IMG/VR virus record: IMGVR_UViG_3300037504_000783
Span: 1 to 27,289 of that record
DNA length: 27,289 nucleotides
DNA from: a virus
Direction: 5' to 3' (one strand)
The notes beneath the pieces were generated by a model that saw only the letters and a list, made by a program, of their open reading frames with translations, was not told where the DNA came from and ran no database searches. Shown piece after piece: positions 3 through 27,289 of the stretch. The first letter of the stretch is position 1, and every line of letters begins with the position of its first letter. The position numbers were made by a program, and so were the translations under genes.

Positions 3-116
3 GATGAACTTGAATCACCTGATTTCGGAAGGTGCGGAAACGATGCAAATGCAGACAAAGATGAATGCTTTGGTGATGGCTTAACTTGTGATTTATTTGA
101 GCGGGCAGGCAAATGA
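3..116 (+). CDS. C-terminal fragment of an unrecognised acidic Cys-containing protein
   Basis: The reading frame is open from the window edge and ends in TGA two bases before an attC-like element. Only 37 residues are visible. They are rich in Asp/Glu and carry three cysteines in a C-x10-C-x6-C spacing. I do not recognise the family and the start lies outside the window. Support for real coding: the frame is open from the edge, and its stop abuts the inverted repeat just as the next gene's stop falls inside the second repeat. That is the usual arrangement of a cassette gene followed by its attC site. Another frame (from 4, ATG) is also open for a short way but gives a less protein-like sequence. 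Confidence 0.45.
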   Translation, partial: DELESPDFGRCGNDANADKDECFGDGLTCDLFERAGK

Positions 117-117
117 A

Positions 118-248
118 GCCTAACGTTGCTGCAATATAATGGCGTAGCGATTAAATGCAATACGCTTAAATAACAGACTAAGTAAAATAAAATAGATAGA
201 TTAAATATTAACCACAACACCGCTATGCATTATGATTGCTTGTTAGGC
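118..248 (+). repeat. attC-like inverted repeat 1 (integron cassette recombination site candidate)
   Basis: The element is 131 bp long and bounded by GCCTAAC (118-124) and its exact complement GTTAGGC (242-248), which fit the attC core boxes RYYYAAC and GTTRRRY. Inside, the 5' arm (to about 149) and the 3' arm (221-248) can pair imperfectly: TTGC..AATATAATG..GCGTAGCG against CGCTATGCATTATGATTGCTT, with bulged bases. Between them lies an unpaired stretch of about 70 bp. Imperfect arms with extrahelical bases and a long variable loop are hallmarks of long attC sites such as the Vibrio VCR type. It follows directly after the stop of the preceding gene. A 20-bp stretch covering the 5' box (107-126) recurs exactly at 672-691. 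Confidence 0.6.
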
Positions 249-283
249 TTTCGTTTTGTGCGGTGGGATTTAAAAGCAAAATT

Positions 284-688
284 ATGGAACAGTACTTAAA
301 TGAATGTGGATATACAATAAGACAAAGTATGTATAATGATTGGAACGGTAAACCAGTTGAAAGAACACCTGATAAATACAGATACAGTTATGATGCCTAC
401 GTAGTGAGTAAAAAAGCGGATGAATACCAGCATGCAGTTTATTCAGATAGATTACTGCAATGGGATTACGACAAACACAACAAACTTTGCAAAAAGCACT
501 TTGGTAATGAGGGGCAATATTGGGATAACAGGAGTGAAGAAAAGATAGAAGCTTTTTTACGGGATTACTATGATAAACCCGAACTTCAACTGGTTGGTAT
601 TATGACTGGATGCAATGTTAGTAACGGATACCCTTACTGGATATTTATGTTTGACTGTGACTTTGGCGGGGAGGCAAATGAAGCCTAA
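284..688 (+). CDS. Hypothetical cassette-borne protein, 134 aa
   Basis: I do not recognise this protein. It is 134 residues, soluble, rich in Tyr, Asp and Lys, with four cysteines (two of them in the C-terminal 30 residues) and a hydrophobic aromatic stretch YPYWIFMF near the C-terminus. I chose the ATG at 284, preceded by an A-rich leader. An upstream TTG at 236 is in frame but falls inside the attC-like repeat. The TAA stop is formed by the GCCTAAC box of the second attC-like element. The gene plus that element therefore makes a unit of about 566 bp between the two predicted G|TT recombination points (243 to 808), the size of an ordinary integron cassette. Confidence 0.65.
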   Translation: MEQYLNECGYTIRQSMYNDWNGKPVERTPDKYRYSYDAYVVSKKADEYQHAVYSDRLLQWDYDKHNKLCKKHFGNEGQYWDNRSEEKIEAFLRDYYDKPELQLVGIMTGCNVSNGYPYWIFMFDCDFGGEANEA

Positions 689-814
689 CGTAGAGCGTAT
701 GCGGTCGTTGCCGTCTTAATTAGAGTTACGAACTTTCAAAATATTACTAATATGAAAAAAGATACTAAACAACCAACTGACTACACGGCAATGCCGTATG
801 ACGCATTGTTAGGC
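683..814 (+). repeat. attC-like inverted repeat 2
   Basis: The element is 132 bp long and bounded by GCCTAAC (683-689) and GTTAGGC (808-814), so almost exactly the length of the first element. The arms pair well: GCGTATGCGGTCGTTGCCGT at 694-713 faces ACGGCAATGCCGTATGACGC at 785-804, with a few mismatches and bulges. The loop of about 70 bp is A/T-rich and contains the ATG (752) of the next gene. The 5' box supplies the stop codon of the preceding gene. The arms differ in sequence from element 1 while box, size and geometry are kept, which is typical of attC sites and untypical of a duplicated insertion sequence. Confidence 0.62.
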
Positions 815-1114
815 GTAGTTATTTCTGGATGTAAGTTTAAATATGCTTCTTACGATTTTAAAGCAGCATACAAGGAACTCCAAAATACAAAACCTGAAAT
901 GTTTATTGACCTTGAAGGAATCGAACATCGGCGTATGGCAGAACTTTACATGCCTGAAGAATTGAAAGAAAAACACAGGGTTTGGAGAATAGGGAAACTA
1001 AGAAGATTACACTTTAATCCAAGCGGTAGGGCATGGAAATTTGAGATAGGGGCAAAACGAGCAAAGACATTTTATGCAAGTGATTTTGGAGTGAATGTTA
1101 TACCACTGACCTAA
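752..1114 (+). CDS. Hypothetical cassette-borne protein, 120 aa
   Basis: An unrecognised basic protein of 120 residues without membrane segments or clear motifs. The central part, around RRMAELYMPEELKEKH, looks helical, and the C-terminus is Lys/Arg-rich. The start is unusual. The best-placed ATG (752) lies in the loop of attC-like element 2, so the 3' arm of that element encodes residues around YTAMPYDALLG. An alternative ATG at 791 also lies inside the element. The first in-frame ATG after the element would remove about 50 residues. If 752 is correct, inserting a cassette here would fuse new coding sequence to a leader supplied by the preceding attC. No function can be assigned. Confidence 0.6.
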   Translation: MKKDTKQPTDYTAMPYDALLGVVISGCKFKYASYDFKAAYKELQNTKPEMFIDLEGIEHRRMAELYMPEELKEKHRVWRIGKLRRLHFNPSGRAWKFEIGAKRAKTFYASDFGVNVIPLT

Positions 1115-1241
1115 TTACGCCTAATGAAAATTTATGGCGCGTTTCAATGCGCTTATAACGGTTAGTAATATGAATAGTTGCGAAAATAAGCACTACAGTA
1201 AATTAAAAGTACAGACGTTCACATTTTAAAAATTTTTAGGG
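1115..1241 (+). other. Spacer with degenerate attC-like motifs and a 19-codon ORF
   Basis: After the stop at 1114 the spacer contains GCCTAAT (1127-1133), a short GCGC..GCGC inverted repeat around 1138-1152, and TATAACGGTTAG (1154-1165). The last resembles TATAACGGCTGG at 2012-2023 downstream of the Mom-like gene. No full partner arm was found, so this is at best a decayed or atypical attC site. An ATG at 1170 opens a 19-residue frame ending at 1229; its leader (taatATG) resembles that of the gene at 752. I see no evidence that it is expressed. Near 1228-1241 the sequence is A/T-rich, leading into the next start. Confidence 0.35.
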
Positions 1242-1922
1242 ATGGGAATTAAAGAAATATACAAAGTACAAAGCATTAAAAAAGAAGAAACAAAACAATG
1301 GTTGCTTTACAAGCACTATGCAAAACGTGTTCCTCCTATCGAATTGGCTTTTGGTTTGTACAAAGATAAAGTTTTGCAAGGTGTTTGTACGTTTGGAATG
1401 CCTGCAAGGATGCTAAATAATGGTTATGGTTGTTTTGGTGATGAAATAGAAGTGAAAACATACGAATTAAATAGACTTGTAATAAACGAAGGGCTTAAAA
1501 AAAATGCACTTTCATATTTTGTTGCAGAATGTTTGAATTTAATTCCTAAACCTTGTTGCATTGTTTCGTATGCCGATGGAAATAACGGACATCACGGCTA
1601 TATTTACCAAGCAACAAACTGGATTTATACAGGTATAACAGCAAGTGAAAAGATGTACATAGATAAACGTAAAAATAAAATTGTACATCCAAGAACAATA
1701 GTGGAAATGTTTGGAAGCCGTGAATTGTCTGTTTTGCCTGATTGGATTGAAGTAAGTAAAGAAGAAAGCGGAAAGTACAGATACTTCCAATTTTTAGGCA
1801 ATAAAACAGACCGAAAAAGAATGAAGAAACATTTAAAATATGATGTATTGCCATACCCAAAAGGAAATAATAACCGATATGATGCAAGCTTTAAACCACA
1901 AACACAAGGTTTACTATTCTAA
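1242..1922 (+). CDS. mom: Mom-family adenine modification protein (copy 1)
   Basis: This 226-residue protein resembles the phage Mu Mom family. Members are GNAT-fold, acetyl-CoA-dependent enzymes that convert adenine in phage DNA to N6-(carbamoylmethyl)adenine and so block many restriction enzymes. Family-like features seen: an N-terminal KHYAKRVPP (about 23-31), FGLYKDKVLQGVCTFG (about 37-52), ELNRLVI, and the strongest block SYADGNNGHHGYIYQATNWI (about 108-127), with the Asp and His/Tyr residues expected near the active site. The C-terminus ends QTQGLLF. The length is close to the 231 residues known for Mu Mom. It shares these blocks with the partial gene at the right edge of the window. 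No SD box; A/T-rich leader with ATG at 1242. It sits alone between two spacers with attC-like remnants, so it may have arrived as a cassette. The family call is confident; activity and target motif are unknown. Confidence 0.8.
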   Translation: MGIKEIYKVQSIKKEETKQWLLYKHYAKRVPPIELAFGLYKDKVLQGVCTFGMPARMLNNGYGCFGDEIEVKTYELNRLVINEGLKKNALSYFVAECLNLIPKPCCIVSYADGNNGHHGYIYQATNWIYTGITASEKMYIDKRKNKIVHPRTIVEMFGSRELSVLPDWIEVSKEESGKYRYFQFLGNKTDRKRMKKHLKYDVLPYPKGNNNRYDASFKPQTQGLLF

Positions 1923-2877: not shown

Positions 2878-3303
2878 ATGGCCGGAGCACCAACGAAATA
2901 CAATCCAGATTATCATAACGAAACAGCGTATAAGCTTGCACTGTTGGGGTTAACAGACAAGGAGATAGCTGGCATATTCGATGTTGAAGAAAAAACATTA
3001 AATAACTGGAAGAAAAGTCACGAAGAATTTTTACAGTCCCTAAAAAAGGGGAAACAAATAGCGGACGCGAACGTTGCAAGCAGGCTATATCAAAGGGCGT
3101 GCGGTTATGAACATGAAGAGGAGAAGGTATTTGTCCACGATGGGCAACCGGTACGGGTACAGACAATAAAACATTACCCTCCTGACACGGCAGCTTGTTT
3201 TATCTGGTTGAAAAACAGGAAGGCACGTCTCTGGAAGGACAAACAAGAGGTAGACAATAAGCACAGCGGAAAACTTGATATTGTTAGAAAAGTCATCAAA
3301 TAA
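2878..3303 (+). CDS. terS: Terminase small subunit
   Basis: The small terminase binds phage DNA at the packaging site and hands it to the large subunit. This 141-residue protein opens with APTKYNPDYHNETAYKLALL and has a helix-turn-helix at about 18-46 (LALLGLTDKEIAGIFDVEEK, then LNNWKK). Next comes the segment SLKKGKQIADANVASRLYQRA and the family-typical KHYPPDTAACFIWLKNRKA. This is a well-known small terminase pattern in phages of Gram-negative hosts. The ATG at 2878 follows the promoter by 20 bp. The stop overlaps the ATG of the large subunit by one base, so the two are probably translationally coupled. Confidence 0.85.
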   Translation: MAGAPTKYNPDYHNETAYKLALLGLTDKEIAGIFDVEEKTLNNWKKSHEEFLQSLKKGKQIADANVASRLYQRACGYEHEEEKVFVHDGQPVRVQTIKHYPPDTAACFIWLKNRKARLWKDKQEVDNKHSGKLDIVRKVIK

Positions 3304-7693: not shown

Positions 7694-8743
7694 ATGAGTT
7701 ACATTGATCAAACACTAATTAATGATTATCAACACAAGGTTGTTGAGAATGAGTTACGGGTTCCAAGGTACGGACTAATTGATCTTATTAAGGCTCAGAC
7801 ACCGTTAGTGCCGTTCAATAACCCAGAATTACAGGCAGCCGTTTTGAACTACGCCAGCGGCAATAGCCTAAAGGTACCGGCCATGGAGGAGGATACGATA
7901 GTGACCTCCACGTCAGAAAGTTTTGTTATACCTGCAAATTTATCTGAATCAGCAATGACATCGCTCTCATTGACGACTATTTTTGCCGGCTTTGCAACTT
8001 ATCCGGAAACTTTCGCTAACAACGTAATTTCTGAGGAGGCCTACGTTTTGAACAAAATCAACGAGGTTGACAAGGCGATGGCAAAAAAACTTGAAGAGTA
8101 CATTGCAACACATCTAAACACGTACAAAACAGCAGTATGGACAGGTGATGATGCAATTACAGGGCACACGTTTCAAGAAGCTACGGACGCGTTGGAAATT
8201 ACGCTTGCAGCTCAAAGCGATGTCATGTTTGCCGATATTGTCGCGCAGGCTGCCAGGAACGATTGGTCGGAAGATCAATTGATGATGGCAATGAATCCAT
8301 CAGGGCAACATGTTTTGAACCAGTACATGAAGTATGGTTCAACAAATGAAAAGAACCTGCAATGGCAAGGTATGCCTGACATCTACAAATCAAACAGGGT
8401 AACCGTTGATGCTGGTAAGCGTTGGACTGGTTATTTGTTAGAACCTGGGGCAATAGGCCTACTGGTTAATCTAAAACCTGCATTTAGGCAGAGAGTAACA
8501 GTTGGCGAGGCAAAATGGGATGTTTCCGATAGTGCATTGCCACAGCTTGGCCATCAAGTTATGTTGTACGAGAACAAGGAAAAAGTTAACGCGACAGGAG
8601 TAGGATCCTACGCGGATCACGCGATCATGTCTTGGAAAAAAGAGTATGGTTTTATTTTCCGCTTTGCCCTTTTGAAAAGGTACAATAGTGACACGGACAG
8701 CAGAGCTGGCTATATCTTGAAAATTAATGGTGAAACCGCTTAA
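7694..8743 (+). CDS. Major capsid protein (HK97-like fold expected)
   Basis: Position after the scaffold and length (349 residues) fit a major capsid protein. The first 40 residues (INDYQHKVVENELRVPRYGL) look like an extended N-arm. The middle has the alternating strand and helix character of HK97-fold proteins, including a long amphipathic helix NDWSEDQLMMAMN and the loop RVTVDAGKRWTGYLLEPGAI. Late strands GQ/KPAFRQRVTVGEAKWDVS and YGFIFRFALLKRY would form the A and P domains. The 52-bp leader ends in an A-rich tract (aattaaaaaaATG) typical of strongly translated Bacteroidota genes. No delta domain is obvious, consistent with a separate scaffold gene. The fold is inferred. Confidence 0.78.
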   Translation: MSYIDQTLINDYQHKVVENELRVPRYGLIDLIKAQTPLVPFNNPELQAAVLNYASGNSLKVPAMEEDTIVTSTSESFVIPANLSESAMTSLSLTTIFAGFATYPETFANNVISEEAYVLNKINEVDKAMAKKLEEYIATHLNTYKTAVWTGDDAITGHTFQEATDALEITLAAQSDVMFADIVAQAARNDWSEDQLMMAMNPSGQHVLNQYMKYGSTNEKNLQWQGMPDIYKSNRVTVDAGKRWTGYLLEPGAIGLLVNLKPAFRQRVTVGEAKWDVSDSALPQLGHQVMLYENKEKVNATGVGSYADHAIMSWKKEYGFIFRFALLKRYNSDTDSRAGYILKINGETA

Positions 8744-8754
8744 AAATTAAAATT

Positions 8755-26693: not shown

Positions 26694-27289
26694 TTAAAAT
26701 AACAATCCTTGATTTGTAGTATTATAACTAGAATCATACCGTATATTATCGCCTTTTGGATAATCACAAATTTTATATTTTTCTAACAATTGTCGTTTCC
26801 ATTTGTTTTTATCTCTTTTGCTTCCTAAAAAATACAAATATCTATGTTTTTTACCACTTTTAACAGGGGTCCAATTATATAGTTTAGCAATTTCGTGTCT
26901 TGTTAATTCTGTATGTTTTTTACGATACAAACTCATTGTTCTGCCGTGTATTTCGTTATTATTTTCATCAATAAAAAACTCATCACCCCCACCTAATCCT
27001 GTGTAAATCCAGTTAGTAGCTTGATAAATATATCCGTGATGATTATGTCCTGAGTCAGCATAACTTATTAAACTTAAAGGTGTAGGCAACTTTTTGAATG
27101 TTTTTGACACAAACCAGCTAAGGGTATTTTTTTCTAAATTATCATTTACAACTAATCTAACTAATTCAATTTGTTTAAAATCTCCAAGTTCATTATTGTG
27201 ATTATTTGCAGGAGGCCCATAACAACAAATACCGATCAGAGTTAAACTATTATCGTACAATCCGAATGAATATATAACAGATGGCATCG
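26694..27289 (-). CDS. mom: Mom-family adenine modification protein (copy 2), 5' end outside window
   Basis: The visible 198 residues align along their whole length with the Mom-like protein at 1242-1922: FGLYDNSLTLIGICCYGPPA, VRLVVND, LSWFVSK, SYADSGHNHHGYIYQATNWI, YLYFLGSKRDKNKWKR, CDYPKGDNIRYDSSY, and an end TNQGLLF. Residues are clearly diverged outside these blocks. Alignment puts the first in-window Met (27287) inside the fold, about 31 residues from the true N-terminus, so the start and the expected HYAKR-like motif lie beyond the edge. It is antisense to the late operon and convergent with its terminator. Same predicted chemistry: N6-carbamoylmethylation of adenine. Copy 1 is 226 residues. 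The family call is strong; activity untested. Confidence 0.78.
   Translation of the reverse strand, partial: MPSVIYSFGLYDNSLTLIGICCYGPPANNHNNELGDFKQIELVRLVVNDNLEKNTLSWFVSKTFKKLPTPLSLISYADSGHNHHGYIYQATNWIYTGLGGGDEFFIDENNNEIHGRTMSLYRKKHTELTRHEIAKLYNWTPVKSGKKHRYLYFLGSKRDKNKWKRQLLEKYKICDYPKGDNIRYDSSYNTTNQGLLF

Follow-up and report, generated by a model that had tools for sequence, protein, structure and literature searches.

Two folded DNA elements at the front of a tailed-phage fragment are best explained as attC-like recombination sites belonging to an integron-like cassette system found in phages of Bacteroidota, a reading that is given here a probability of roughly 85%. The fragment is a 27,289-bp IMG/VR record, analysed over its full length and referred to below as the window. 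In it, small genes make up a 2.8-kb accessory region ahead of the packaging genes (TerS at 2878, TerL at 3303), and the phage would carry a short array, with two cassettes or more, in front of the terminase genes (Table 1). An earlier note on this DNA had taken the elements for integron attC sites. They do have the character of attC-like folded sites accompanied by single-gene cassettes, but they do not belong to the canonical IntI/attC type and their cassettes are inverted.

Table 1. Features of the cassette region of the window (CM R1, covariance model R1)
Feature	Position	Strand	Evidence and remarks
Cassette-end motif, copy 1	101..126	+	Direct repeat, 26 bp
Hairpin 1 (attC-like)	118..248	+	CM R1 57.9 bits, E=5.6e-10; arm alignment; fold. 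Boxes GCCTAAC 118-124 and GTTAGGC 242-248; inner stem ~131-149 / 221-238; one bulge per side; one G.T pair
Cassette 1 (putative unit)	125..689	+	Hairpin 1 + gene, TAAC cut on both sides; rule from relatives
Cassette-start leader GTTAGGCTTTCGTTTTGTGCGGTGGGATT	242..270	+	Present in other phages ahead of different genes
Cassette 1 ORF	284..688	+	134 aa, no known family
Cassette-end motif, copy 2	666..691	+	Direct repeat, 26 bp
Hairpin 2 (attC-like)	683..814	+	CM R1 66.2 bits, E=1.1e-11; arm alignment; fold. Boxes GCCTAAC 683-689 and GTTAGGC 808-814; inner stem ~695-714 / 786-803; two G.T pairs and one bulged base per side
Cassette 2 (putative unit)	690..1125	+	Hairpin 2 + ORF
Cassette 2 ORF	752..1114	+	Up to 120 aa, no family
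Possible decayed third hairpin	1119..1241	+	CM 10.9 bits, E=2.9, not significant alone
Mom-like DNA modification gene adjoining array	1242..1922	+	PF25680 E=2.9e-35, phrog_1384

The boxes of both sites are exact, as the earlier note had read them, and the imperfect, bulged pairing that it described appears in the arm alignment as 1-nt bulges. At site 1 the left arm GCAAT-ATAATGGCGTAGCG stands opposite GCAATCATAAT-GCATAGCG, the complement of the right arm, and at site 2 GCGT-ATGCGGTCGTTGCCGT stands opposite GCGTCATACGG-CATTGCCGT, the R and L arms being separated by an unpaired spacer of about 5 nt on the left and 3 nt on the right. Folding energies are lower for the plus strand at both hairpins (-11.9 versus -10.0 kcal/mol at hairpin 1, -18.1 versus -14.7 kcal/mol at hairpin 2), and by these energies alone the strand expected to recombine would be the slightly more stable one. 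The folding energy of the whole sites (131-132 nt) is unimpressive (z = 0.15 to -2.6), because the long AT-rich loop dominates. The 20-mer that the note found to recur exactly lies within the 26-bp direct repeat, whose copies are 96% identical (cassette-end motif GGCAAATGAAGCCTAACGT) and are indeed translated in different frames (at the stop, AAATGA in one and GAAGCCTAA in the other). The third feature in Table 1 scored by the model, at 1119-1241, is probably a decayed hairpin copy, situated where the next hairpin is expected. A further stretch at 2008-2060, CCTATAACGGCTGGCGGTATGCAATCGTTATTTTTT, resembles a left hairpin half without a right arm, and has no covariance-model score.

Similar elements recur in other phages. 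Motif GGCAAATGAAGCCTAACGT is found in three more IMG/VR contigs, each time behind a different gene and ahead of a similar hairpin, and the leader GTTAGGCTTTCGTT..GTG recurs in other phages, including GenBank phage OP947161. The latter is named 'Rhodobacteraceae phage LS06-2018-MD05'; the host in this name may be wrong, because the cassettes of the phage belong to the Bacteroidota-type family. A one-sided search with the left-arm pattern TAACGNNNNGTATAWGNNNCGTTG matched 66 viral stretches in IMG/VR (67 matches), and a partner arm followed by GTT was present in 59 of the 67 matches, with A opposite the left-arm G at positions 7 and 12 in 59 of 59. These G/A positions are two G.T pairs if the shown strand folds, and A.C mismatches if the other strand does. 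In a fixed-spacing search, the G/A combination was recovered 130 times versus four times for perfectly paired G/G. In a set of 47 diverse elements, 95% of cells retain the structure and double changes number 178; covariation is 0.518 versus 0.127 after shuffling (0/500) and at most 0.11 in slid versions; both G.T positions were required by the detector that assembled this set, and their unbiased support is the 59/59, for which the left arm alone was fixed. When all loci were randomized by a first-order (Markov) scheme, the strict detector found 0 elements.

Covariance model R1 was built from these 47 elements, which come from other phages and Bacteroidota genomes and none from the window. Run over the whole window, it returned the two sites, the next best hit having 12.4 bits (E=1.4). 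The key searches were run with filters off, because the default filters missed AT-rich true sites. Nearly constant in the family is the pair TAAC and GTTA alone, not the full boxes, and hairpin plus leader are 72-88% conserved among unrelated phages beside different genes. Most members have no extrahelical bases and two G.T pairs instead, whereas the window sites have one bulge per side; under the strict G/A rule, window site 1 agrees at one of two positions, with one bulge. Blastn of single sites against named phages yielded mostly AT-rich noise, and the cassette-end 17-mer gave four matches in 257 Gb of cellular genomes, none with a hairpin and all taken as chance.

The family extends to chromosomes. 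The strict phage hairpin pattern matched one of 395 Bacteroidota genomes (G111), and the phage-only family that this single match suggested was overturned by model R1, which found sites in 82 of 198 Bacteroidota genomes, locally more than a dozen in 20 kb. Integron-like arrays may thus be common in Bacteroidota, and searches for IntI or canonical attC would probably miss them. The hairpins co-occur with a clade of tyrosine recombinases (47/35/17/99, odds ratio 7.8, p=3e-10).

Recombinases of this kind are also encoded by phages, beside the array. In G427 (47.9 kb), a 270-aa Xer/IntI-like protein lies directly behind the last cassette, with TAAC/TATTATATATCAAC between the two (a slash after TAAC, or within G/TT, marks the cut), and the attI-like sequence TAAC/TATTATATAT is found beside the recombinase in phage G427, prophage G111 and phage L178. 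The G111 enzyme is the closest relative of G427's in chromosomal records (55% versus 46% for the next); it lies 3 kb from a strict-pattern hairpin in a prophage-like block, where TAACTATTATATATCAAC precedes the recombinase gene as in G427 and a C5 methyltransferase forms one of the cassettes. A viral scan added the recombinases of L176 (59%) and L178 (64%), with hairpins before the recombinase in both; L178 has the attI core of G427, whereas the attI and boxes of L176 are divergent. The L178 gene (2232-3044) has an in-frame stop after about 98 residues, which may reflect decay of this copy or a fault of assembly. Related recombinases (35% identity) are encoded by Polaribacter phages Freya_1-10 and Cellulophaga phage Ingeline; the Freya enzyme is 35% identical to that of L104, phage recombinases being diverse and attI differing between lineages. 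Two model-supported hairpins lie beside the recombinase of Freya_10, and in Ingeline leader and cassette-end sequences were recognised by eye, with no covariance-model match. A 45.7% identical recombinase is widespread on Acinetobacter plasmids (H67-H76, annotated TnpF in one record), and a mobilizable Flagellimonas plasmid (NZ_CP092416) carries a chromosomal-type recombinase (xerA) beside erm(F), with family hairpins at 7904-8034 and 8612-8745.

No tyrosine recombinase was found in the window or in eight more array-bearing records, two of them complete genomes, and a PF00589 gene was present in one of 39 further array-bearing phage records (1/48 overall among those first checked). The earlier note had described a cluster of attC sites without an integrase (CALIN). 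That description fits the 27-kb fragment, in which the model places two sites and neither a PF00589 gene nor an attI-like site was found, but as a local state alone, relatives having both recombinase and attI beside the array.

The window elements could be ordinary attC sites (a CALIN) captured from the chromosomal IntI integrons of a host, and of the alternatives this one fares best, although it is improbable. Phage CALINs have been published, and among the attC sites predicted in Polaribacter phage P12002L one recombined with IntI1 (PMC9892861); P12002L carries nine or more sites of the family described here. Of six phage sites tested in that study, five were recombined by IntI1, and P12002L was the source of one or more of these, although the tested P12002L site may not be of the present family (PMC9892861). 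In addition, of 395 Bacteroidota genomes sampled, 105 have a true IntI above the NCBI cut-off, with canonical attC sites, more than expected from the literature on Bacteroidetes. IntegronFinder 2 reported only few integrons in Bacteroidetes (PMC9024848). However, the canonical attC sites beside these IntI genes, with which the note had proposed a comparison, fail to match the family model (E=0.62 at best); in place of G.T pairs they have two extrahelical bases, spaced 7 nt from each other. The presence of family sites shows no association with IntI (odds ratio of 0.66). A 44-protein tree places the Bacteroidota IntI in a clade of their own (100/100), and the phage recombinases, which fall outside it, form a clade too. 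Between the box I Arg and HxxR, IntI has 134 residues, whereas the chromosomal relatives have 92-93 and the phage proteins 87, and the IntI insertion is therefore missing from both phage and chromosomal recombinases, whose TIGR02249 scores are below cut-off. Site type, co-occurrence and tree are the grounds on which IntI is rejected as the recombinase.

An integron cassette travels as a circle, and the box of its attC site is for that reason complementary to that cassette's own start. In the present family, across 137 pairs of adjacent elements, the start of a unit matches its own end at 4.63 of 7 positions, as opposed to 2.69 of 7 for the opposite box of its own hairpin and 2.47 for random units, and a third G.T pair recurs at position 11, where the unit start has G and the complement of the unit's end has A. 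In L073, for instance, five successive cassettes each have their own pair of ends. The limits of the units are also visible as breaks in homology: a 352-bp unit common to L051 and L067 is 100% identical between different flanks, with the identity ending exactly at TAAC; a 277-bp unit is present twice within one phage (99.3%), cut at TAA(C); and where high-identity matches near hairpins lose homology on their left side, they do so no more than 4 nt from the TAAC box. Since the breakpoints lie at TAAC, the moving unit is a hairpin plus the gene after it, and the canonical integron phase, a gene plus the hairpin after it, is ruled out by the breakpoints in L051/L067 and the Freya phages. The swapping of units in related phages that the note had looked for thus takes place, but at TAAC and not in its phase of 243/808. 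Read on the other strand, the phage unit is G/TTA...gene (antisense)...hairpin/G, a canonical cassette with its gene reversed.

The Freya phages are relatives of the window phage, and single-cassette differences between them are direct evidence of cassette movement. These Polaribacter phages were isolated on one host in one study, with genome lengths of 44.0-48.9 kb (PMC8776804), in the text of which no mention of integrons or cassettes was found. Freya_9 and Freya_10 are identical upstream through ...TTTTTACCAAC, which in Freya_9 is followed directly by ACCCCTATAACAAC (attI-like, recombinase), whereas Freya_10 has one additional 307-bp unit (hairpin plus gene), ending in TTGTTGCTAAC, and then Freya_9's attI. 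The difference between Freya_5 and Freya_6 is one 472-bp unit, absent from Freya_10. In both pairs, co-isolated genomes that are otherwise near-identical, the unit is inserted between AAC and attI. Between Freya_5 and Freya_10, the shared prefix (45,676) and suffix (49) overlap by exactly 3 nt, AAC; these comparisons show, therefore, several different boxes joined to one attI at AAC. The junction is internal to the record in Freya_5, 6, 9 and 10, unlike in Freya_1 and Freya_2, for which an assembly effect is possible and the evidence weaker because the junction coincides with the record ends. A crossover at G/TT and insertion beside attI are thus seen in relatives of the window phage, namely Freya_5/6/9/10 and L051/L067.

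Exchange of this kind could be ascribed to generic homologous recombination between conserved intergenic sequences serving as passive linkers, with no dedicated enzyme, as might be imagined from the conservation of hairpin and leader (72-88%) among unrelated phages and from the lack of a recombinase in most array phages. This is distinctly less probable than capture from IntI integrons: the breakpoints lie 0-4 nt from one short TAAC rather than being spread over the conserved 150 bp, the joined sites have AAC alone in common with attI, and both the compensatory changes and the cassette-specific pairing of ends require selection on pairing.

Under the boundary rule taken from L051/L067, L075/L095 and the Freya phages, the single-gene unit of the note keeps its length (565 bp), but its phase would be about 125-689, with the cut at TAAC, and not 243-808. 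The start of cassette 1, GTTAGGCTTTCGTTT, partly pairs with its end, AAATGAAGCCTAAC, the two having GTTAGGCTT in common and diverging beyond; a search for relatives of the 134-aa protein found none. The start of cassette 2, GTTAGGCGTAGTTA (808-821), pairs with its end, TAATTACGCCTAAT (1112-1125), as a 92% complementary inverted repeat with G.T at position 11, and its right-hand box has decayed (AAC to AAT). The ATG of the cassette 2 ORF is situated inside the hairpin loop, and the real start may lie further downstream. As in the relatives from which their positions and mobility are extrapolated, the window genes are inverted relative to canonical integron cassettes; variants of the two window cassettes were sought and none found. 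The host is likely to belong to the Bacteroidota, judging from relatives of the sites and not from the phage's own genes, as TerL has no close relative and did not place it. A second Mom-like gene (PF25680, phrog_1384) lies at 26694-27287 on the minus strand, so that Mom genes are found at both ends of the fragment.

The cassette ends of chromosomal arrays pair as in phages (positions 4-9 match at 80-91% versus about 30-50% at random), and in 22 of 22 loci paired by coordinates the G.T strand points toward the recombinase. The genes, however, run opposite to the G.T strand, in the canonical direction, in 30 of 35 chromosomal units, whereas in phages the G.T strand is the coding strand, the reverse of the canonical sense, in 51 of 61. 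Since the G.T strand is coding in phages and template in chromosomes, site polarity follows the recombinase, not transcription. It is for this flip in polarity relative to the genes that an RNA-level role of the hairpins in the phage operon, as terminators, processing sites or 5' leader regulators, is rejected as the least probable reading, for although RNA tolerates G.U pairs, the hairpins are intergenic and the leader is conserved up to the start codon, such a role leaves unexplained the pairing of unit ends over hundreds of bases and the exact indels at AAC, and an Rfam scan gave no match.

With attC-like sites as the preferred reading, a mechanism can be proposed in which both window elements would be folded, single-strand-type recombination sites, the folding chemistry and strand choice being presumed. 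The mobile unit, one hairpin plus the gene after it, would be bounded by TAAC, and a phage-lineage tyrosine recombinase, some 270 aa long and related to Xer and IntI although it falls outside the IntI clade, would exchange units between a hairpin and the attI-like site beside the recombinase gene, at the AAC of each (G/TT on the opposite strand). Such exchange would enlarge, reduce and reshuffle the array. For the window cassettes, a recombinase supplied in trans is proposed because the sequenced part of the phage has none.

The cargo suggests what such exchange may serve. Among 128 ORFs behind phage hairpins there are seven N6/N4 and three C5 DNA methylases, one D12 methylase, two Mom proteins and one Tad6 (a Thoeris inhibitor), most of the 128 being small and of no known function. 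DNA-modification and anti-defence cargo ties the shuffling of cassettes to the arms race between phage and host. How small phage accessory genes are exchanged so rapidly is an open question that is usually answered with 'mosaicism', and the present system offers an answer that is site-specific and testable, in named isolates with recombinase, attI-like site and array (Freya_1-10 and Ingeline) in which single-cassette differences are already present. It seems somewhat likely that Bacteroidota and their phages possess an integron-like lineage separate from IntI, in which a phage-encoded, inverted-cassette machine swaps anti-defence genes (DNA methyltransferases, Mom, Tad6) between phage generations. 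In the open literature, subscription papers and preprints lying outside the search, no description was found of the recombinase/site family, its inversion in phages or its phage-encoded use, and an integron-like system with its own recombinase in some Bacteroidota phages is apparently undescribed.

Phage-borne attC clusters are themselves already known, including one in a Polaribacter phage (PMC9892861), and this part of the note is therefore not new. The published phage CALINs (Qi et al. 2023, PMC9892861) resemble the present arrays in that tailed phages carry gene cassettes together with attC-like sites, mostly without an integrase and often with DNA methyltransferases as cargo. They differ in that the sites were treated as integron attC recognised by IntI; a dedicated recombinase of this kind, inverted cassettes and a G.T-paired site family were not found in that paper. 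The closest chromosomal relatives of the phage recombinases (up to 46%) are Bacteroidota proteins annotated 'Site-specific tyrosine recombinase/integron integrase' (NCBIfam NF040815-like, 266-375 aa). These too are flanked by arrays of present-family hairpins, but many have a longer N-terminus and their cassette genes run in the canonical direction; no paper describing their arrays was found.

The hairpins are also used by a second, independent type of element, the group II intron. Prophage G111 (L159, 9181-14928) has three identical introns, each inserted where a hairpin meets a cassette, and identical 426-aa group II intron reverse transcriptases are encoded at such hairpin/cassette junctions in L159, L177 and L214 (16534-17850). 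The G111 introns are comparable in position to group IIC-attC introns (PMC7923331), although their class may differ. With class 1 and sedentary chromosomal integrons, finally, the present system shares a recombinase gene at the attI end, hairpin sites, pairing of cassette ends, the G/TT (AAC) crossover with insertion beside attI, and boxes of the form RYYYAAC...GTTRRRY, which both window sites have. It differs in a recombinase that lies outside the IntI clade and has no IntI insertion, in sites most of which have conserved G.T pairs in place of two extrahelical bases, and in the orientation of its phage units, which run opposite to the integron arrangement of a gene 5' of its own attC and in the same direction.
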